Under the pieces are notes generated by a model. The model ran no database searches. It had not been told where the DNA came from and saw only the letters and a list, made by a program, of their open reading frames with translations. A stretch of 33,718 nucleotides of DNA. It comes from Methanobacteriota archaeon. Lineage in GTDB: Archaea > Thermoplasmatota > Poseidoniia > Poseidoniales > Thalassarchaeaceae. This document shows, piece after piece, positions 15,365 through 25,431 of this stretch. The translations under genes and the position numbers were made by a program. Each line of letters starts with the position of its first letter. The first letter of the stretch is position 1. The stretch is from NCBI GenBank assembly GCA_004195715.1, contig PSPX01000013.1, positions 1-33,718 on the forward strand. The letters run 5' to 3'.

Positions 15365-17155
15365 ATGCAGCACGGAATTCTTCATCCGAGCCTCACGCCG
15401 GGGCTAATCGAGGCCCGTGCTTACCAGCTCGAGGCGGCAGATGAGGCGCTTTCCGGATCGATGATGCTCGTTCTGCCAACCGCTGCTGGTAAGACAGTGG
15501 TCGCGTGGATGGTAATCGCCGATCGATTAGAGAGCAGGGACGGCTGGGTCCTGATGATCGCCCCGACCGTCGCTCTGGTAGAGCAGCACCTACGTGGAAT
15601 CGAGTCCGTGCTGTCAGGCAGCGCTTCGGTCAATCCGATATCCGTGACAGGTCAGAATCCGGTCGCGAAGCGTGCTACTCTTTGGGGCTCGTCCAGACTT
15701 GTAATAGCGACTCCGCAGGTTGTCAGGAACGATGTCACCCGAGGAGTCTTGGACCTCTCTGACTGCTCTCTCCTCGTTGTCGACGAGGCGCATCACGCGA
15801 CGGGAAATCACGCAATGGCCCAGGTCGGTGACATGTATCTATCACAGACATCTGAACCACTCGTCCTAGCTACCACAGCGAGCCCTGGTTCCAAGACCAA
15901 TCAGGTCGAGGAAATCTGCGACCGACTGGGCATAGGTAGAATCCATCTGAAGACAGGTGCCAATGCGATGGTGGCACAGCACCTCGCAGGATTGGATATC
16001 CAAGAGGTAAAGGTCAGGGTCCCGAATCGGATCAGGGAGCTCGCAGAGCCCCTAGTCATGTGGCAGAGCGGCATTGTCGACCGCGAGAGGAGGCTGGGCA
16101 GGTACGTCATTCCCGGGGTAATCAGCCATGCTGGTCTGTCCAATGCAATGGAGCGGGCCCAGCAGGCAATTTCTAGGGGCGAGTCCAGCGCCTACCAGTC
16201 GGTTTCTAGAATCGCCACTGCGATGCGTCTGCATCACCTAATCAACCACCTGCTGTGCCAAGGTGTCGCCGCCTCAAGCGAGTTCCTCGAACGACTCTCG
16301 AGGAGTGAGCAGTCTCAGAACAAATCGACGCGGAACTTCCTGAGGGATGGACGGGTGTCAAGCCTGCGCAAGAGCCTGTCCGAGATGGGCGAGATCCACA
16401 CCAAGGTCAGCGCGGTTCGAAGGCTCGTCTCTGAGAGGTTTCGTAGGAACTCCGATTCGCGCATCATCGTGTTCGCCACCTTCAGAGATACCGTCGCAGC
16501 CGTCGAGGAATCTCTAGGCGAATTAGATGGAGCCCGTCCGATACAGTTCGTCGGTCAATCCAGCCGCGAGGGTAGGGATGGACTGACCCCCAAGCAGCAG
16601 ATTGAGAGACTGGACAAATTCAGGTCGGGTTCTGCGAATATACTAGTCGCGACTTCGGTAGGCGAGGAAGGGCTCGACATCCCTAGCGCCGATCTAGTGA
16701 TATTCTACGAACCGGTGTCCAGCGAGATACGCACCATACAGAGGCGTGGTAGGACCGGTAGGCACCGAGAGGGAGAGGTTGTCGTCCTGATAGCCGAGGA
16801 CACGCGCGACGAAGGAGCTAGAGCGTCCGCCGAGAGGCGGGAGGAATTTATGCAGCGAGCCGTGCACAGGGTTCGCAGGAAACTCCCTCGCAGCCCTCAC
16901 ACAGATCTCTCCAACCTAGGTAGATTCGAGATCGACTCAGAGGACGGCCCCCTATCTGCCTCGGAGTTCGTTTCCAGACAACGCCAAATGCACCGGATAG
17001 AGATTACCGAATCGGACGTCAGCACAGTACAGGAAAGTGAGGGGGCCACTGCACTCCCTCCGGACACATTCAGAGCAAGGGGGCAAGCCGGGTTGGAACA
17101 GTTCGGTGTTGAGTCCGTCATCGACCCCGAAAATGACCTAGAGCAGGGCACTTAG
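15365..17155 (+). CDS. Hef/FANCM-family DEAH superfamily 2 helicase, no nuclease domain
   Basis: This 596-aa protein has a full SF2 helicase core: a Q-like motif RAYQLEA (18-24), Walker A LPTAAGKT (37-44), DEAH (140-143), TTASPG (170-175), motif V ATSVGEEGLDIP (429-440) and motif VI QRRGRTGR (459-466). The helical insert between the two lobes (about 200-340) and the motif details fit archaeal Hef, which remodels stalled replication forks. Pyrococcus Hef carries a C-terminal XPF nuclease with an ERKGxxxD motif; none is visible here, and the last 80 residues are acidic and unassigned. The stop abuts the stop of the converging gene at 17156. The start is the ATG at 15365; no strong ribosome binding site is seen. 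Confidence 0.88.
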   Translation: MQHGILHPSLTPGLIEARAYQLEAADEALSGSMMLVLPTAAGKTVVAWMVIADRLESRDGWVLMIAPTVALVEQHLRGIESVLSGSASVNPISVTGQNPVAKRATLWGSSRLVIATPQVVRNDVTRGVLDLSDCSLLVVDEAHHATGNHAMAQVGDMYLSQTSEPLVLATTASPGSKTNQVEEICDRLGIGRIHLKTGANAMVAQHLAGLDIQEVKVRVPNRIRELAEPLVMWQSGIVDRERRLGRYVIPGVISHAGLSNAMERAQQAISRGESSAYQSVSRIATAMRLHHLINHLLCQGVAASSEFLERLSRSEQSQNKSTRNFLRDGRVSSLRKSLSEMGEIHTKVSAVRRLVSERFRRNSDSRIIVFATFRDTVAAVEESLGELDGARPIQFVGQSSREGRDGLTPKQQIERLDKFRSGSANILVATSVGEEGLDIPSADLVIFYEPVSSEIRTIQRRGRTGRHREGEVVVLIAEDTRDEGARASAERREEFMQRAVHRVRRKLPRSPHTDLSNLGRFEIDSEDGPLSASEFVSRQRQMHRIEITESDVSTVQESEGATALPPDTFRARGQAGLEQFGVESVIDPENDLEQGT

Positions 17156-18016
17156 TCAGTCGCCGATGACTGCAATCCTAGTTCTCAACTGTGCCAGCCT
17201 AGTGTTGTGGTGACCCATAGAGAAAGAAAGCATCTCTGTTAGATGGATAACTGGGATATTGGTAGCGAGTCCGGTTGACCTCGAAGCCTTGCCCTGATAG
17301 ATATCGAGAACGCTGTGCGAGAGGTTGCAAGCGCTTACGATGAGTTCTGCTCCCTCAGACTTGGCCTCATGGAGCACCGCAGCGGCCTGCCGCAGCACCG
17401 TCGGCTCCTCAGATAACAGCCCTGGAACTCCTACGCTCTGTGTGCGCCCCTCCCACTGCACAGGCTTCCCTCCGATGGCATCGATGACCTGCTCGAGGTA
17501 GTCCGGATCGTGGACGTCATCGCCCCCGCAGGCTCCGGCCTGCTGTATGTTCGGACCGTAGTATGCAGCGACATCGAAGTCAATGGGGTTCAGTATCGCG
17601 GCCTCGAGTTTCTCGAGGCCGACCTCGTCCACTATCACGTGCAGGAGATGATGGACTTCGACTCCCCCAGAGAATCTCTTGCCGCAAGTCCTCTCAAGGA
17701 CCTCGTTGACCTCTGCGAGCAGATTGGGATTCTGTTTGAGGGCGGAGAGATCCTCATGCAGGTTCCCAGCTGTAGCTGCACACGGTGTGATGATGTCGAG
17801 GCCGAGTTCCTCTGCCATTGCGAAGGTGCGGGCATTGAGGGTCAACTGCAAACGCCTGCTGGCCTGTCTAATTATCCCGGCTCCGCAACTGGTCGCGCCC
17901 CTCATTGGGACCAGTTCGATGCCCAGTGATTGGGCGACAGGTTCCATCGTCTCAGCCACCTCGGTAGCGCTGCTGTGGGCCACGTTACCAGGATGATAGG
18001 CGTACTTCAGTGGCAT
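17156..18016 (-). CDS. CCG-domain protein (HdrB/SdhE-like) with degenerate cysteine motifs
   Basis: This 286-aa protein has the two-repeat layout of HdrB, archaeal SdhC/SdhE and the TfrB C-terminus: YHPGNVAHSSATE, the first CCG position at 43-44, VNEVLERTCGKRFSGGVEVH, then AAYYGPNIQQAG and a second CCG region. In functional relatives these motifs bind non-cubane Fe-S or zinc. Here the ligands are mostly replaced: N11 for the PGC cysteine, S43-C44 for CC, C79 with T82 for CxxC, P155 for the YYGC cysteine, S194-V195 for CC, and C230 with S233 for CxxC. The fold is probably kept but cluster binding is probably lost. The ATG at 18016 shares a base with the stop of the upstream fusion gene (TGATG), so the two are made together. 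Confidence 0.8.
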   Translation of the reverse strand: MPLKYAYHPGNVAHSSATEVAETMEPVAQSLGIELVPMRGATSCGAGIIRQASRRLQLTLNARTFAMAEELGLDIITPCAATAGNLHEDLSALKQNPNLLAEVNEVLERTCGKRFSGGVEVHHLLHVIVDEVGLEKLEAAILNPIDFDVAAYYGPNIQQAGACGGDDVHDPDYLEQVIDAIGGKPVQWEGRTQSVGVPGLLSEEPTVLRQAAAVLHEAKSEGAELIVSACNLSHSVLDIYQGKASRSTGLATNIPVIHLTEMLSFSMGHHNTRLAQLRTRIAVIGD

Positions 18017-19986
18017 CAGAACCTACCATCCACTTCGTTGAATATCGCGACGACCTCGTGGTGGTGGTCGACAGAGGAGTTGAACTGCTTCGGCATCTTT
18101 CCAATACCGGCAGGTGGAGCCAACATTCCCAACATGCCGTTGAATACATTGCCGCCGGTTCTAGTGAACCCGAATACCATGCGAGCAGTGACCCCCGAGA
18201 ACAGGTTTCCGAGCAGCCCCATTGGACCGAGAACCTGCCTGTAGATCACGGTATCATTTACTCTACCGCTGCTCTTCACGGACCAGCTGTACCACCAGAC
18301 GTGCTTGCCGTGGCGGCCGTTGAAACCACCTCTGCTCAGAGTAGAGGTCCGCGCGTCGAGGAGGGCGTCAGCAATGATTCTCGCCGAACCATTCTGTCGG
18401 CGGATTGAAGCGAGGTCGGTCTCGGCCTTTATTCCCTCCTTGGAGTCCATTACATCTTGCATCCCAACTATGCTAGATTCCGAAGAGCGCGGGTCGTTAA
18501 TGCGCGCCCATGTCCGTGCTAGGACTGCGGGGCCGAGGTATGCCTCGGAATGAGGAGTGGCATCAGAGCAAGAATGCAGCAGTGGTGCACTGCAAAAGTC
18601 GGTAATCGAATGCAGTATGTCTGCAGTCGAGGGGTCCATGGTCCCCACTACACCCTGAGCGGTATCGGCACCCTCCCTAGTGGCTGCGACCATCCACGGC
18701 TTGGAAGACTCTCTGCCTCTCTCGAGAGGCCAATGGTCCACAACTAGATCTCGAACGACGTCGAACGATGGCAGGGGCTCTATGCGCAGCCTCAGTCCAC
18801 CGTCTCGGATTGGGGCTACCGAATCAAGTCTGACGCTACCGGGCAGAATCAACCTGCCATTGACTGATATCGCGGTGGCTGGGTCGTCGCTGGGGCCGTC
18901 CCTGAAAGTCAGGGTGCCATCATGAGTCTCCTTCAGCGCCCTCAAGGACTCGAGTACCGACATGTGGCCGGGCAGGGCGCAGACCCAGGTGTCCTTGCCC
19001 GTGGTGGCGCTGACAGGGTCGTATCGGAATATGCTAATCTCAGCTTGGATGACCTCTGCAGCGGTCTCGGGAACGGTGAAGCCGTCCTCGCCGGCTGCTC
19101 CCGCTGCGGCCGCGCCGCTGACTCGATCCTTGATTGCCTCCACCTGATTCTCATGGAACTGGCCGCTACCGTCAACCGCGGCCATCACTGCGAGTGCATC
19201 GATGGCCCAGGCTGCTGCAGAGGAGTCGTAATCCACGTCGCAGTCAACGCGGTCAAGTAGTCTCGTCGCTCCCAGATGCTGCAATCGGTCGTCCCAGTCC
19301 TTGCCAGACTGGCAGTAGAACTCGTAACTGGTATCACCAAGAGCGAGGATTGAGAAGTTGACTCCTGACAGATTGGGTGCCGAGTCTGAGCTGGCTTGTA
19401 GCCACAACTCCTCGGCGTTGTCGGGCATTTCGCCCTCGCCCCAAGTCGAGCAGATAATCAGGACTCTCTTCATTCCAGGCAGAGCGGACAGGTCGAATCC
19501 GTCCATGTCGTGCACTGCGGCGTCGAGGCCGTAGTCAGTGGCCTGCTTCGCGAATTTGGCCGCCAGTTCCTCGGAGTTGCCTGACTGCGAGCCGAATAGG
19601 ATGCTCATCGTCCGGTCTCCTGCAGTCAGAAGGGACTCGAGGTCATCACCCGTTATCTCCACGGACTCCTCGGGGACTATCTCCACCTCTGGCTCGGGAG
19701 CTGCTTCCTCTGCTGCCTCAGGTACTTCCTCTCCAGTGCCCTCCACTACGATGATGACATCGACCGGGCAGGCGTCTGCGGCATCGAAGATGTCATCTGA
19801 GAGAGAAGATACCACATCCGGTTTAAGCCCGGATTTGCCAATGTTGCGGTCGTAACCGCCATCGAGCCTAGCGTCGGGTTTGATGAAGCAGGTGTCTTCA
19901 GTGACCTCGAAGATGTCCGGAGCCGCTTCCTCGCATGCATCGCAGACGATACAGCCATCATCGATGAAGACGCTGAATATCGCCAT
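18016..19986 (-). CDS. Ferredoxin-flavodoxin-SdhB-like fusion protein
   Basis: This 656-aa protein has three parts. Residues 5-85 form a ferredoxin with CIVCDAC (C12, C15, C18) and a distal CP (C73), enough for one [4Fe-4S] cluster. After an acidic linker, about 125-270 is a flavodoxin with the FMN-phosphate loop GSQSGNSEE and STWGEGEMPDNAEE. About 316-550 follows SdhB/FrdB: IFRYDP, then VLESLRALKETHDGTLTFRD, RIEPLPSFDVVRDLVVD and AYLGPAVLARTWARINDPR. The cysteines that bind the [2Fe-2S], [4Fe-4S] and [3Fe-4S] clusters in SdhB are missing. The last 100 residues are Gly- and hydrophobic-rich around 585-630, perhaps membrane-associating. The ATG at 19986 was preferred; an in-frame GTG lies at 19995. 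No SdhA-like flavoprotein is in the window. Confidence 0.82.
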   Translation of the reverse strand: MAIFSVFIDDGCIVCDACEEAAPDIFEVTEDTCFIKPDARLDGGYDRNIGKSGLKPDVVSSLSDDIFDAADACPVDVIIVVEGTGEEVPEAAEEAAPEPEVEIVPEESVEITGDDLESLLTAGDRTMSILFGSQSGNSEELAAKFAKQATDYGLDAAVHDMDGFDLSALPGMKRVLIICSTWGEGEMPDNAEELWLQASSDSAPNLSGVNFSILALGDTSYEFYCQSGKDWDDRLQHLGATRLLDRVDCDVDYDSSAAAWAIDALAVMAAVDGSGQFHENQVEAIKDRVSGAAAAGAAGEDGFTVPETAAEVIQAEISIFRYDPVSATTGKDTWVCALPGHMSVLESLRALKETHDGTLTFRDGPSDDPATAISVNGRLILPGSVRLDSVAPIRDGGLRLRIEPLPSFDVVRDLVVDHWPLERGRESSKPWMVAATREGADTAQGVVGTMDPSTADILHSITDFCSAPLLHSCSDATPHSEAYLGPAVLARTWARINDPRSSESSIVGMQDVMDSKEGIKAETDLASIRRQNGSARIIADALLDARTSTLSRGGFNGRHGKHVWWYSWSVKSSGRVNDTVIYRQVLGPMGLLGNLFSGVTARMVFGFTRTGGNVFNGMLGMLAPPAGIGKMPKQFNSSVDHHHEVVAIFNEVDGRF

Positions 19987-20056
19987 GAAGTCCACTCGTG
20001 CCTATCGGCAGTCTGGGCACCCTGACACGATTATTGAATCTAGTGCAACCGGGGTC

Positions 20057-20087: not shown

Positions 20088-21707
20088 TCACATCATGCCC
20101 ATGCCGTCGAACTCGCCGCCATCTGGCATAGGGGAGCCTGCGCGGCTAGATATCACATCGTCAATCCTCAGGATCATCACTGCGGTCTCTGAGGCGCTCT
20201 GGATGGCCTGCTCCACGACTCTGCTGGGCTCGAAGACCTGGGCTTCACTCATGTCGGCAACTCCGCCATCGTAGACATTGACTCCGAAGTGCGACTTGCC
20301 TTCCGAGTGTGCCTTCCTGAGGTCGATGATGGTGTCGACTGGATCCAGTCCGGCGTTCTCAGCGAGGGTCCGAGGAATTACCTCAAGAGCCCCCGAGAAT
20401 GCCTCGATAGCCATCTGCTCCCTTCCTCCGATTCCCTCGGCGTAAGAACGTAGGTCGCGGCTTATCGCGGCGACAACCGAGCCGCCTCCAGTCAGGACTA
20501 CTCCATCCTCATGAGCCACAGCGACTACGCCAACAGAATCGTCGAAGGCTCGACGGACCTCATCGACCACGTGCTCGGTTCCGCCTCTGAGTAGTACCGA
20601 GACGCTCTTAGCGTCGGAGCAACCAGTGACGAAGACCATGTCTGACTCACCTATCTTGCGCTCCTCAACCTTCGAAGCGCTGCCTAAATCATCGGAGGAC
20701 AGGTCGTCTATGTTGGTCACGATCCTGCCGCCAGTAGCCTTTGATAGGGCCTCCATATCACTCTTCTTAGCCCGGCGAATGGCGAACAATCCAGCCTTCG
20801 CCATGTAGTGCTGAGCCATGTCATCAATGCCCTTCTGGCAGATGACCACACTGGCTCCAGAGGCCTGGATCTTCTCGACGAGGGACTTGAGGTACTGCTC
20901 CTCCTCATCGAGGAACTGCGAGAGCATGCTCGGGTCGGTAATCTGAATCTTAGCGTCGACCTCGGTTTTCTTGACCTCGATGGCCGAGTTGATTAGGGCG
21001 ACCTTTGCATCAGTCACGCTGCGCGGCATGCCACTGTGGACACGTTCCTTGTCGAGGATGATTCCGTCAACTAAGGAACTGTCCTTAATCGATCCACCCT
21101 GCTTCTTCTGCACCTTGATGTCGTCGAGGTCGACCACTATCTCACCATCTGCATTTTCTTGGGCCACCGAGAGGACTGCTCTGACCGAGATATCTGCGAG
21201 GAACTCCTTGACTGCGCCTGCACTCTTGCCTGTGAGTGCAGTCTTCGCCACCTCTTCCAGCATATCCTGATTGACGGCGATGGAATGAGTCTCGATGAGT
21301 TCTGAGGCCTTGTCGGAGGCGAGTCTGAAGCCCTCGCAGATTACTGTTGGATGGACATTCTGTTCGACTAGGTCCTCACTACGCTTCAGCAGCTCTCCTG
21401 CGATTACGACGGCACTTGTGGTGCCGTCGTAGCAGTGCTGCTCCTGAGTCTTTGCGATCTCTATGATCATCTTCGCCGCAGGGTGCTCTATATCCATCTC
21501 CTTGAGAATAGTAGCGCCGTCATTGGTGATGACTACGTCACCCATGCTGTCTACCAGCATCTTATCCATACCCTTCGGACCTAGAGTAGAACGCACCGAG
21601 TCAGCCACTGCCTTGGCAGCAGCGATGTTGTTGCTCTGTGCCGAGCGACCACTGGTACGCTCTGTGCCTTCCTTGAGGATGAAAATTGGTTGTTGACCGC
21701 TGTACAT
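20088..21707 (-). CDS. Thermosome subunit (group II chaperonin)
   Basis: This 539-aa ATP-driven protein-folding ring subunit is of the usual length. It has [20 protein letters not shown] and [20 protein letters not shown] near the nucleotide site, [20 protein letters not shown] in the C-terminal equatorial part, and the Met-rich end FDGMGMM. The motif that reads GDGTT in nearly all group II chaperonins is CYDGTT here (about residues 92-97), with Asp kept and the preceding Gly replaced by Tyr. The ATG at 21707 has no ribosome binding site, suggesting a leaderless or short-leader transcript. It is a single gene, with another chaperonin subunit probably elsewhere. Confidence 0.95.
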
Positions 21708-21790: not shown

Positions 21791-24700
21791 TTATTCGCTG
21801 TTCTGTTGGTCTAACCAGCGCTGGCCGTAGTGGACCCACTGCTCTTGGGACCATCCCTCAGGGAGGCCTTCCTCCGGAATCGGCGGTACCGCTGGAGGAA
21901 GTTCGGACGAAGACTCTGGCTCTGGCTCTGGCTCTGGCTCTGGTTCTGGTTCTGGTTCTGGCTCTGGCTCGGGTTCTACGGAAGGAGGTGGTGGCATCTC
22001 CGGGGGCTGTTCAAAAATCTCCTTTGCACCTCCATACATTGAATTGGCCACCTCGTCGTCTGCGGGCAGTTCTGGAGCGTTTGGGATTCCATCCTGATCG
22101 TCCCAGCCGCTGCCGTCTACGGTCATCTCGTAGGTGTCTAGGGTCGATATCTCCTCCATCGGAGCGGTCGCGCTCTTGAATATCCTGAGCGAGGCGACTA
22201 GAATCGCAACCACGACTCCCAGTCCGATAAGGAGGAACAGGATGTTGCCGGCCCACCAAGCTGTCGCTTCAACGTCGACGCCGGTTTGAATGGGGTTCAG
22301 TTTGTGCATGACTACAGATCCGTTCATCGAGACCTTGTCCCTGTCGCCGTCGACCTCGAGCACTATTCCGAAAGTCATCTCGTTCTCGAGGAGATTCTCT
22401 AGGTTGTCATCGGTCACCGTAAGCCAGACGGTGATGTCCCTAGACTCATTGGCGAGTAGGACGAAGTCCCTGTCGCCCATATCCACACGCGCATCGAAGA
22501 TGTTGAAGAAGATGTCAGAGTTCCTGTCGATGTCGGCCCTCAGGAGTTGGTCATCGGGGTACAGGTTGACCACTGTGTACACAAGTGCGTAGTCGTCCCC
22601 ACTCTCCATTATCACCAGTGGCGTGGGTGCTAGAATCTGAAAGAAGCCTTGTGTGCCAACGATGAACTCGGCCTTTCCACTGCCACTGACTGTGAGTCCG
22701 TCACTAGCAGCCTCGACGCTGGATGCGGTTAGGGTGATGTCGCGCTCCCCCGAGGTTGAAAAGTCGAACGAATAGCGCACGGTGAGGTTCAGTGATGAAC
22801 CCGCTGGGATATATGGAGTCCGCCCATTGGTCAGCCCGGTCGCCTGAACCCAGACGTCGGGGTGACTGGTATCAAAATCAATGGTGAAGGCGTCGTTGAC
22901 GTTGCCGTCGTTCCAGATTTCCCAGTTAACAGTCCTAGCATCATCCCCTCCTCTGAACACCTCCTCTGTCATGTCGAGGTCCTCGACTGCGACCAGATTG
23001 GTCACAGGGATTGTGAGCAGGATCCTTACACTCGATTGGTAGCCCGAGTCATCCTGACTGGCTGCGATTATCCAGATCTCGTAGGTCTCATTGGCAATCC
23101 CATAAGGCATCGGCAGCAACAGCAAAACGGTGCTGTCTCCACCAAATGGATCTATCCCGAGGCTCTGCTCTGCATTTAGGGAGGCGCCGAGTTTCCAGTC
23201 TGATAGCACAGCTAGATCGAATGCCTCCTCCGAGTTTCCATTGTTAACCATCCTGACTTCGATTAGCCTCAGGAAGCCGTCGGCAGAGGCCATCATCTCC
23301 GTGGTCTCCGGCTCGAGCACTAGGTCGTGGAATACCGGGACCTCGATGTATATCGTCCAGTCTGCCACGAAATTGGCAGGAGGTCTGCCGCTTGCGAGCA
23401 GAGTTATCGCATAGGTGCCCGGAGATACCTCATCGGGTACGATGACAGTTGCCGTGAGTTCGAACTCATCGGTGATGTTCATCGAGAGGCTGGTAACCAC
23501 AGAGCCGTTGGCATCGTGCCAAACCAAGTTCTCATCACCCCAACGGCTATCGCCAAAGGTAGCACCCAAGTTCCAGGTCGCTATCTGATTCCCAGTGTTC
23601 TTCATCACCATCGCCACATCCCCGGTGGTTCCTGGATACAACACCGCGGCTGGGTTTGCAAGGGCCTTCTGATCTAGGGAGATTGAGTATGCAGCAATGA
23701 CCGATACGGGCAACTCAATGTACACCTTGGAGAGATTAGTGGTCCCATCGTTAATCCAGACAAACCAGTCTAACTCCTCGACACTGGCGCCCTCTGGAAT
23801 ACTGAGATTGAACCACGTGTTCATGGTATCGAGGGCGCTGATGACCTCGGAGACAACATAGTTGTCGTGATCGAACCTGTTGTTGGAGTCAATCCTCAGA
23901 GGGTAGCCATTCATCCAAGTCTGGTTGGAGATTTCGGTGTACAGGCGGAGAGTGATGTCAACGTACCCATTGTTCTTGATTTTGCAGAATAGAGAAGGTG
24001 GCCTAGAATCGTCAGGCACCACCATGTAGGCGTTGGGCAACGGGTCGTCGCAATCGACGTCGAGGGTGTACTCTGCGACCTTCTCGAATCCGAACAATAG
24101 GAAAGAGTCCAGATGGATGCCCTGATTCGCGAGGGAGCTGTCTGAATCGAAGCGGAAGGCGAGAGAATAGTCGGCATTGGGATGTACGTCGGTCATGTTC
24201 CAGACCAATCGGGACCAATCGCCGTGGTTCTTCGAGAGGTTTTGTTCAGAGTAGTTGTAGTACTCCAGAGATCCTCCGGCATCAGCCTCCATCCTGATGG
24301 TGTCGCCGGGAGCCATCTCCCCCCATGCCGCAGTCACCAAGTGCATCGATATGAAGTCGAACGACCTTACCCTGATCTTGCAGAAATTGTTTCCATACAG
24401 TACCGATACTGCTGAGTCTAGGGTTCCATACTTGAGCCCGTGTCCAGGATCGTCGCAGTTGTCGAACGGAGTGAACCAGCCCCACCAGAGCCTGTCATGT
24501 CTGTTGCTGGCGTAGTCTGAACCAGGCCTCGACACCCTCCAGTGCATCTCGCCCTCGTCGCTGGAGGCGTTCTCCATCCTCCAGTGCCCGTAGTAGTCGG
24601 GGTCCGATGAGAGAGTTCCGTCCGAATCATACCCGGCTCCGACCCATGTCGGCTCGTTGGCGCTGAGTTGGTTGGTGCAGTCAACAACCTGATCGCCGTC

Positions 24701-25273
24701 CACATCCCCACAAAATCCATTGTCCATAGGGTCCTTCCAGACCGCCACTGGTACTTCCCTATCGAACTCGTTGTTGTCCTCGTTGTCATCAGCGAGTCCA
24801 CCGTCGATGATGCCACGCAGTATGATTCCGCCGTAGAGATTGCCATCTTCATCAATAGCACTGTGAGCAGCGCTAGGAGTCCAGTAGAACGACTCGGTGG
24901 TAGACTGCAGGCCGGACAGTGTCATGTTGACATAATGTTCCTCCATCAGAAATCCGACGGGATGCCAGACCTGCATCCAACCCTCTGCGTAGGCAGGCTG
25001 ACTTGATGTGCCAGCCTGAGTGAATGTGATACTCACCAAGACGTACTCGTTTCGGAGAACGTATTCTAGCGTAGAGTTGTCCGGCTGGTCCCACTGCAGG
25101 GCCGAAGTCAAAGAGTCGCCGAGCTCGATAGAGGTGACTTCGAAGTCAATCAGTGCCTTCGGGGTGGCCGCACGTTCCTCGGCAGTTGGAGGCATCACCG
25201 AGTTTGCAGCCAAAGGGGCCATGCTCATGATGAGGAGTAAAGACACCAGAAAGAGAGAGGACAGGCTACGCAT
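21791..25273 (-). CDS. Large secreted protein with C-terminal membrane anchor and acidic Pro-rich tail
   Basis: Function unknown. From the ATG at 25273 it is 1160 aa: a signal peptide (about 1-25, cleavage near PLAANS), a roughly 980-residue extracellular region rich in beta strands with repeated CARDB-like or NEW3-like segments (VMKNTGNQIATWNLG, VRMVNNGNSEEAFDLAV, NWEIWNDGNVNDAFTI), one transmembrane helix (about 1005-1027) and a cytoplasmic tail of about 130 residues. The tail holds ten EP dipeptides in a row and ends PEGWSQEQWVHYGQRWLDQQ, which looks like a small folded motif. Cysteines in the N-terminal third (GFCGDVDGDQVVDC) may form disulfides. An alternative ATG lies at 25300. Neither start has a clear ribosome binding site. 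It probably belongs to the cell surface. Confidence 0.85.
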   Translation of the reverse strand: MRSLSSLFLVSLLLIMSMAPLAANSVMPPTAEERAATPKALIDFEVTSIELGDSLTSALQWDQPDNSTLEYVLRNEYVLVSITFTQAGTSSQPAYAEGWMQVWHPVGFLMEEHYVNMTLSGLQSTTESFYWTPSAAHSAIDEDGNLYGGIILRGIIDGGLADDNEDNNEFDREVPVAVWKDPMDNGFCGDVDGDQVVDCTNQLSANEPTWVGAGYDSDGTLSSDPDYYGHWRMENASSDEGEMHWRVSRPGSDYASNRHDRLWWGWFTPFDNCDDPGHGLKYGTLDSAVSVLYGNNFCKIRVRSFDFISMHLVTAAWGEMAPGDTIRMEADAGGSLEYYNYSEQNLSKNHGDWSRLVWNMTDVHPNADYSLAFRFDSDSSLANQGIHLDSFLLFGFEKVAEYTLDVDCDDPLPNAYMVVPDDSRPPSLFCKIKNNGYVDITLRLYTEISNQTWMNGYPLRIDSNNRFDHDNYVVSEVISALDTMNTWFNLSIPEGASVEELDWFVWINDGTTNLSKVYIELPVSVIAAYSISLDQKALANPAAVLYPGTTGDVAMVMKNTGNQIATWNLGATFGDSRWGDENLVWHDANGSVVTSLSMNITDEFELTATVIVPDEVSPGTYAITLLASGRPPANFVADWTIYIEVPVFHDLVLEPETTEMMASADGFLRLIEVRMVNNGNSEEAFDLAVLSDWKLGASLNAEQSLGIDPFGGDSTVLLLLPMPYGIANETYEIWIIAASQDDSGYQSSVRILLTIPVTNLVAVEDLDMTEEVFRGGDDARTVNWEIWNDGNVNDAFTIDFDTSHPDVWVQATGLTNGRTPYIPAGSSLNLTVRYSFDFSTSGERDITLTASSVEAASDGLTVSGSGKAEFIVGTQGFFQILAPTPLVIMESGDDYALVYTVVNLYPDDQLLRADIDRNSDIFFNIFDARVDMGDRDFVLLANESRDITVWLTVTDDNLENLLENEMTFGIVLEVDGDRDKVSMNGSVVMHKLNPIQTGVDVEATAWWAGNILFLLIGLGVVVAILVASLRIFKSATAPMEEISTLDTYEMTVDGSGWDDQDGIPNAPELPADDEVANSMYGGAKEIFEQPPEMPPPPSVEPEPEPEPEPEPEPEPEPEPESSSELPPAVPPIPEEGLPEGWSQEQWVHYGQRWLDQQNSE
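21914..21976. repeat. Hexanucleotide repeat coding for (Glu-Pro)10
   Basis: The plus strand repeats CTCTGG or TTCTGG ten times (last unit CTCGGG), and the minus strand codes for alternating Glu and Pro. The repeat lies in the cytoplasmic tail of the secreted protein. The near-perfect hexamer makes length change by slippage likely. Confidence 0.85.
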
Positions 25274-25431
25274 GTGACGAATCTTCGGTTCTACATACAT
25301 GTATGAAGGTTCGCTAGCAACGTTCGCCGCCCGTAGGGCGCTACGCAGAGGATTGGTGGCTCTTAGACGCCTCTCTAACCGCCCGGAGGCGGCTCGGTCC
25401 CGATGAAGGGCTTATGGTGACTCGATGAGGC
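25274..25431. promoter_or_regulatory. Divergent intergenic region with palindrome and small hairpins
   Basis: The region lies between a minus-strand secreted protein and a plus-strand membrane protein. It has a 12-bp perfect palindrome CATACATGTATG (25294-25305), a hairpin CGCCC-GTA-GGGCG (25328-25340) and another, CCGCC-CGGA-GGCGG (25379-25392). Both promoters should lie here. No clear TATA element was identified. Confidence 0.45.

Follow-up and report, generated by a model that had tools for sequence, protein, structure and literature searches.

We describe here a conserved gene pair of the archaeal order Poseidoniales (Marine Group II), in which homologs of SdhB and of the SdhE/HdrB family have both lost ligands of their iron-sulfur clusters, and in which the SdhB-like protein carries ferredoxin and/or flavodoxin domains with intact cofactor-site motifs. 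The pair is universal in the sampled order, it is maintained by purifying selection, and ferredoxin and flavodoxin have been exchanged for one another repeatedly. We estimate the probability at about one half that the pair forms a cluster-free SdhB-SdhE dock with tethered, interchangeable low-potential carriers.

The window, that is, the whole analysed stretch of 33,718 nucleotides, comes from a 1.45 Mb draft genome. The fusion gene occupies positions 18016..19986 on the minus strand and encodes 656 amino acids from the ATG at 19986; the open reading frame extends over 18016-19995, and an alternative GTG start at 19995 would give a protein of 659 amino acids. The original prediction of a ferredoxin, a flavodoxin and an SdhB homolog in one chain, which named no strand, is confirmed by Pfam, where Fer4_13 (residues 8-79, 19750..19965), Flavodoxin_1 (residues 129-253, 19228..19602) and Fer2_3 (residues 317-418, 18733-19038; 34.9 bits against a cut-off of 27) all score above their cut-offs on this strand. 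The first domain is, as had been proposed, an intact single-[4Fe-4S] ferredoxin with all four cysteines of the CxxCxxC...CP pattern, and the second is of the CysJ type with its FMN-site motifs kept. Between them lies a linker (19621..19737, minus strand) rich in Glu, Ala, Pro and Val, with pLDDT below 50 at residues 83-113, as expected of a tether. The SdhB-homologous region without cluster ligands spans residues 317-504 (18475..19038, minus strand); the NCBIfam SdhB model PRK05950 aligns to residues 314-504 at 57 bits, far under its cut-off of 228, and a profile of the region matches SdhB chains at 2e-16. The C-terminal extension (residues 505-656, 18019..18474, minus strand) is conserved, poorly modelled, and aligns with the extension of SdhABE-type SdhB.

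The partner gene (17156..18016, minus strand) encodes an SdhE/HdrB-like protein of 286 amino acids, in which both CCG motifs are broken, and its start overlaps the stop codon of the fusion gene. According to Pfam, SdhA is not encoded beside the fusion in the window, the adjoining genes being the SdhE-like gene and, directly upstream, a thermosome/chaperonin subunit (20088..21707, minus strand), which we regard as a neighbor and not as a part of the system. No redox partner was identified by Pfam at the locus, where the neighbors are this chaperonin and an unrelated superfamily 2 helicase of 596 amino acids (15365-17155, plus strand), convergent with the SdhE-like gene. Farther away, positions 21791-25300 of the minus strand encode a large protein of secreted or membrane type, which ends close after a (Glu-Pro)n repeat and has no Pfam match over cut-off. 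In the fetched relatives a long open reading frame lies upstream of the fusion gene.

Loss of the cluster ligands was assessed in an alignment of 115 non-redundant sequences, including that of the window, with cysteine-bearing SdhB proteins from genomes G234 (family f6) and G097 as well as canonical ones from two members of the Poseidoniales; the 12 cluster cysteine positions of the f6 SdhB served as the reference. The window fusion has other residues at all 12 positions, as proposed originally for the sites of all three clusters. For the third cluster the predicted loss stands and the predicted place does not: the site aligns slightly further on, at GIKAETDLASIRRQ with Glu522 at the first ligand, and not at the quoted DVMDSKEGIKAE. 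None of the 12 cysteines is kept in 112 of the 115 sequences and only one in the other three (L023, L025 and L050), so that a complete ligand set is absent from every SdhB part in the alignment. Two replacements are invariant (115/115), Ser at C165 (S474 of the window protein) and Glu at C210 (E522); Thr replaces C67 in 105 of the 115, and most of the 12 positions are hydrophobic, Gly, Thr or variable. The two cysteines of the segment FCSAPLLHSC are not conserved (9/50 and 8/50). Of ten pairs compared, nine gave a value of dN/dS, lying between 0.02 and 0.07, with dS saturated in several. The fusion is thus not a decayed gene and is under purifying selection.

The partner is homologous to SdhE/HdrB over its full length and has the HdrB fold, with scores below the curated equivalog cut-offs. 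It scored 134 bits against the HdrB model TIGR03288 and 112 bits against MFR_anch_SdhE, the SdhE of methylmenaquinol:fumarate reductase, both far under the NCBIfam cut-offs. The name SdhE stands here for the HdrB-like subunit and not for the FAD assembly factor, which shares that name (PMC10238741). The second CCG motif is broken in all 113 partners, with only the first Cys of its CxxC remaining in each. The first motif is complete in only six of the 113 (L023, L025, L026, L043, L048 and L185), two others being cut at this place, so that the stripping has not gone to completion in every lineage. All six adjoin fusions of the ferredoxin-flavodoxin form, an association that is weak given the few lineages concerned. 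The invariant cysteines are C228 (113/113) and C77 (111/111, the other two being cut), and in a 22-row alignment H234, D238, Y240 and Q241 are invariant as well. In one metagenome-assembled genome (REDSEA-S11_B3N4; L273/L022) both genes are joined in frame into a flavodoxin-flavodoxin-SdhB-SdhE protein of 997 amino acids; this form was seen in that MAG only, the last residues of its SdhB part are missing, and it may be an assembly error.

The AlphaFold2 model of the window fusion has a mean pLDDT of 63, being good in the flavodoxin, fair in the SdhB N-terminal domain and poor in the C-terminal parts; the full-length model is poor except in the flavodoxin, in parts of the SdhB N-terminal domain and in parts of the ferredoxin. 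Its flavodoxin matches that of E. coli CysJ at Z 22, and since all VIA-align rows of the full-length model are flavodoxin domains, the missing SdhB rows there carry no meaning. The SdhB-SdhE part of the close relative L273 (612 amino acids, AlphaFold2, mean pLDDT 62) includes the partner, whose region is mostly at 70-94 with dips to 47-59 and matches HdrB 5odc_B with Z 32.8 over 274 residues at 2.5 A; we use this model for its separate domains and not for an interface between the subunits. In the same model the SdhB N-terminal domain matches 2h88_B with Z 11.8 over 98 residues at 2.4 A; the SdhB matches range over Z 10.1-13.0, the top one, at Z 13.0, covering 137 residues at 7.1 A. Model confidence is low for the C-terminal domain of SdhB as well as for the extension, and the originally proposed likeness to SdhB from end to end is accordingly borne out by structure for the N-terminal domain and by sequence alignment for the second one. 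The two outcomes named at the outset as adverse, a predicted structure unlike SdhB and cysteine-keeping close homologs revealing a decayed copy, were not found, and the search for homologs with the same domain order recovered ferredoxin-flavodoxin-SdhB in 53 of the 115 sequences.

Scanning named genomes gave 261 relatives, and the titles among the best 80 of these 261, which were kept, are Marine Group II, Ca. Thalassarchaeaceae, Poseidoniales, and unspecified Euryarchaeota or Thermoplasmatota. In a phylum sample of 243 genomes, the SdhB-like part and the partner were matched in all 64 members of the order, the partner being weak or split in two of them (G055 and G231), and neither was matched in the five same-class genomes outside the order (0/5). 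Among close relatives, 57 of 60 genomes carry the fusion; the three that lack it are 60-85% complete, and all 25 genomes that are at least 90% complete are positive. Outside the order the partner is most similar to proteins of eight f6 genomes (221-245 bits, the next outside genome listed scoring 202), whereas the fusion SdhB profile alone gives higher scores in G097 and G083 than in f6. Fourteen loci from outside the order that had matched SdhB were read; nine of them, including all five fetched from f6, encode SdhA, SdhB and SdhE with the cysteine motifs.

The same archaea retain a conventional complex: SdhA and a cysteine-bearing SdhB were found in 12 of 12 Poseidoniales genomes tested, the canonical SdhA adjoins its own SdhB on contig C23, and in genome G000 the few kb read on the flanks of the canonical SdhAB showed no gene of the SdhE/HdrB type. 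Descent of the fusion from the genomes' own canonical SdhB was considered and is unsupported, the two forming separate clades in an unrooted tree with long branches. In this tree the fusion SdhB sits on a long branch beside no one group, and the case for an SdhABE ancestry therefore rests on the partner scores and on the extension. From these similarities we infer that the pair probably descends from an SdhABE-type complex; succinate would be oxidized by the classical complex, and the B-E arm of the older one would have been stripped and reused.

The carrier end of the fusion is variable in its composition and conserved in its cofactor sites. The CxxCxxC...CP pattern is retained in all 54 ferredoxin domains, and three FMN-site patterns covering the phosphate and flavin loops are all matched in 135 of 149 flavodoxin domains; 13 of the others miss the first pattern only, those inspected having YGSQ instead, and the last fails at the third. 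Against the NCBIfam CysJ model the flavodoxin scores 146 bits. The 115 sequences comprise 53 with ferredoxin-flavodoxin, 40 with two flavodoxins (one also fused to the partner), 19 with one flavodoxin (three of them cut at a contig end), one with a ferredoxin only and two cut before any carrier. The ferredoxin-only form, a protein of 471 amino acids in the Cayman_51_deep MAG (L205; G012:C9) with ferredoxin and SdhB-like parts and no flavodoxin, comes from a single genome and is a possible artefact. The forms with a single flavodoxin or ferredoxin indicate that two carriers are not required, so that a two-step relay within the chain is not general.

The tree on which changes of architecture were counted covers the SdhB region and has 114 rows (L271 was too short and was left out); the counts use 109 of the 115 sequences after exclusion of L216, L257, L260, L272 and L274, which are cut or have a truncated flavodoxin. 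At least 22 changes of architecture and at least 18 of ferredoxin presence are needed, the counts being approximate because these quick trees have many weak forks. Even very near relatives differ, such as L153 (two flavodoxins) and L262 (ferredoxin-flavodoxin), or L033 (ferredoxin-flavodoxin) and L170 (two flavodoxins). The flavodoxin tree is built from no more than 146 columns and leaves many forks open. In it, family f1 has all but two of its 36 first flavodoxins in one group along with four single flavodoxins, and the four first flavodoxins of family f2 sit among f2 sequences. By this separate grouping, tandem flavodoxins arose at least twice, and the f1 first flavodoxins seem to have been exchanged between lineages.

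The possible source and destination of the electrons are suggested by the whole genomes of G000 and 11 relatives. All 12 encode POR_N, a hallmark of 2-oxoacid:ferredoxin/flavodoxin oxidoreductases, and all 12 have NuoD, but a NuoF-type 51K protein is present in only one. Its absence from the other 11 argues against an NADH module, and from gene content these archaea seem to have a complex I without the NADH-binding part, whereas their NADH dehydrogenases are described as canonical in a published survey (PMC6336850). A CysJ-like role together with sulfite reductase was ruled out, since no sulfite/nitrite reductase (NIR_SIR) was detected in any of the 12 genomes. We propose that in a non-classical complex of the SdhABE type the SdhB-SdhE arm, which resembles HdrC-HdrB, lost its clusters and became a protein dock, to which ferredoxin and/or flavodoxin are tethered by flexible linkers. 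A 2-oxoacid:ferredoxin oxidoreductase may hand low-potential electrons to the tethered carrier, and the acceptor may be the complex I that apparently lacks its NADH subunit; removal of clusters and replacement of ferredoxin by flavodoxin would both spare iron. More tentatively, the carrier could be a cassette at one chromosomal locus, iron-containing as ferredoxin or iron-free as flavodoxin, by which lineages adjust how much iron they spend on a universal and probably essential step, the passage of electrons released by 2-oxoacid oxidation to a complex I that has no NADH module; this extension of the proposal is possible rather than probable.

The conserved residues of the partner are open to a different interpretation, since a chemical role would account for the invariant C228 and C77 as readily as a scaffold does. 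The SdhE/HdrB-like subunit might be a new enzyme, in which the invariant cysteines, the first of each CxxC, act with the His, Asp, Tyr and Gln on a thiol, a disulfide or another substrate, FMN or ferredoxin feeding electrons in directly without clusters. Retention of the HdrB fold agrees with such an enzyme; however, no substrate or pathway gene is found among the neighbors, and several of the invariant residues also occur in cluster-bearing SdhE/HdrB and may be structural. We consider this rather unlikely. Still less probable, in our opinion, is a role in assembly or regulation, for instance as a decoy or chaperone that binds SdhA of the canonical complex II and delivers electrons or senses redox state. 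The N-terminal domain of SdhB binds SdhA, its fold is retained in the fusion, and every one of the 12 genomes has an SdhA with a cysteine-bearing SdhB for such a factor to serve; on the other hand, fusion and canonical SdhB of the same genome group separately, and the canonical SdhAB of G000 has no SdhE/HdrB-like gene nearby.

Clusters bound through other ligands such as invariant Ser, Glu or Asp are very improbable: the Ser at C165 and the Glu at C210 would be candidates, but most of the 12 positions hold residues of other kinds and no complete set remains. Decay of the gene or an assembly artefact has a negligible probability; the SdhE-fused and ferredoxin-only forms, known from one genome each, are the only ones that could be artefacts, but the 115 non-redundant sequences come from many assemblies, and decay is ruled out by the dN/dS values, the invariant replacements and the universality of the fusion.

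An SdhB scaffold with electron carriers supplied by the N-terminal domains, as proposed originally, is plausible, and the evidence for it is strengthened by the stripped SdhE/HdrB partner and the repeated exchange of carriers, both of which the original prediction overlooked. Searches of the open-licence PMC literature gave no account of this protein, and it is not named in the passages covered of a survey devoted to fusion proteins in archaea (PMC11237513). Each domain is known, and as far as could be tested the pair of cluster-stripped SdhB and SdhE with an exchangeable carrier is new. It is unusual for redox subunits to lose their iron-sulfur clusters and yet to occur throughout an order, where strong purifying selection maintains them. 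The pair offers a natural experiment on the interchange of ferredoxin and flavodoxin inside one protein, in an abundant and uncultured ocean lineage, and a candidate route for low-potential electrons where the NADH-binding subunit of complex I was not found; if the proposed dock is real, it would amount to an iron-saving rewiring of respiration, and would caution that the labels SdhB and HdrB may be misleading in these genomes.

Among known systems, SdhB/FrdB, SdhABE-type SdhB and the SdhB of methylmenaquinol:fumarate reductase resemble the fusion in the Fer2_3 domain and in the alignment over residues 314-504, the SdhABE type also in its extension; the fusion differs from SdhB/FrdB in its lost ligands, its fused carriers and the lack of an adjoining SdhA. 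The partner shares the fold of SdhE of SdhABE complexes and of the HdrB subunit with two CCG domains, and differs in having one Cys left of the second motif and, with six exceptions, an incomplete first one. The flavodoxin is similar to those of CysJ and CPR, but the FAD/NADPH-reductase domain of CysJ is absent from the fusion chain by Pfam. TfrB, subunit B of the CoM/CoB thiol:fumarate reductase, unites SdhB-like and Hdr-like parts and retains its clusters; its match is weak, 23.6 bits falling far short of the 385 that NCBIfam requires. Finally, PDB 3kwl from Helicobacter pylori, labelled as of unknown function in a table of PMC3397514, differs by its 15% identity and by the placement of its halves, but in structural alignment it matches both the SdhB and HdrB halves on one chain (Z 23.7, 346 residues, rmsd 13), and among the matches listed it is the only one to span both halves of the SdhB-SdhE model.
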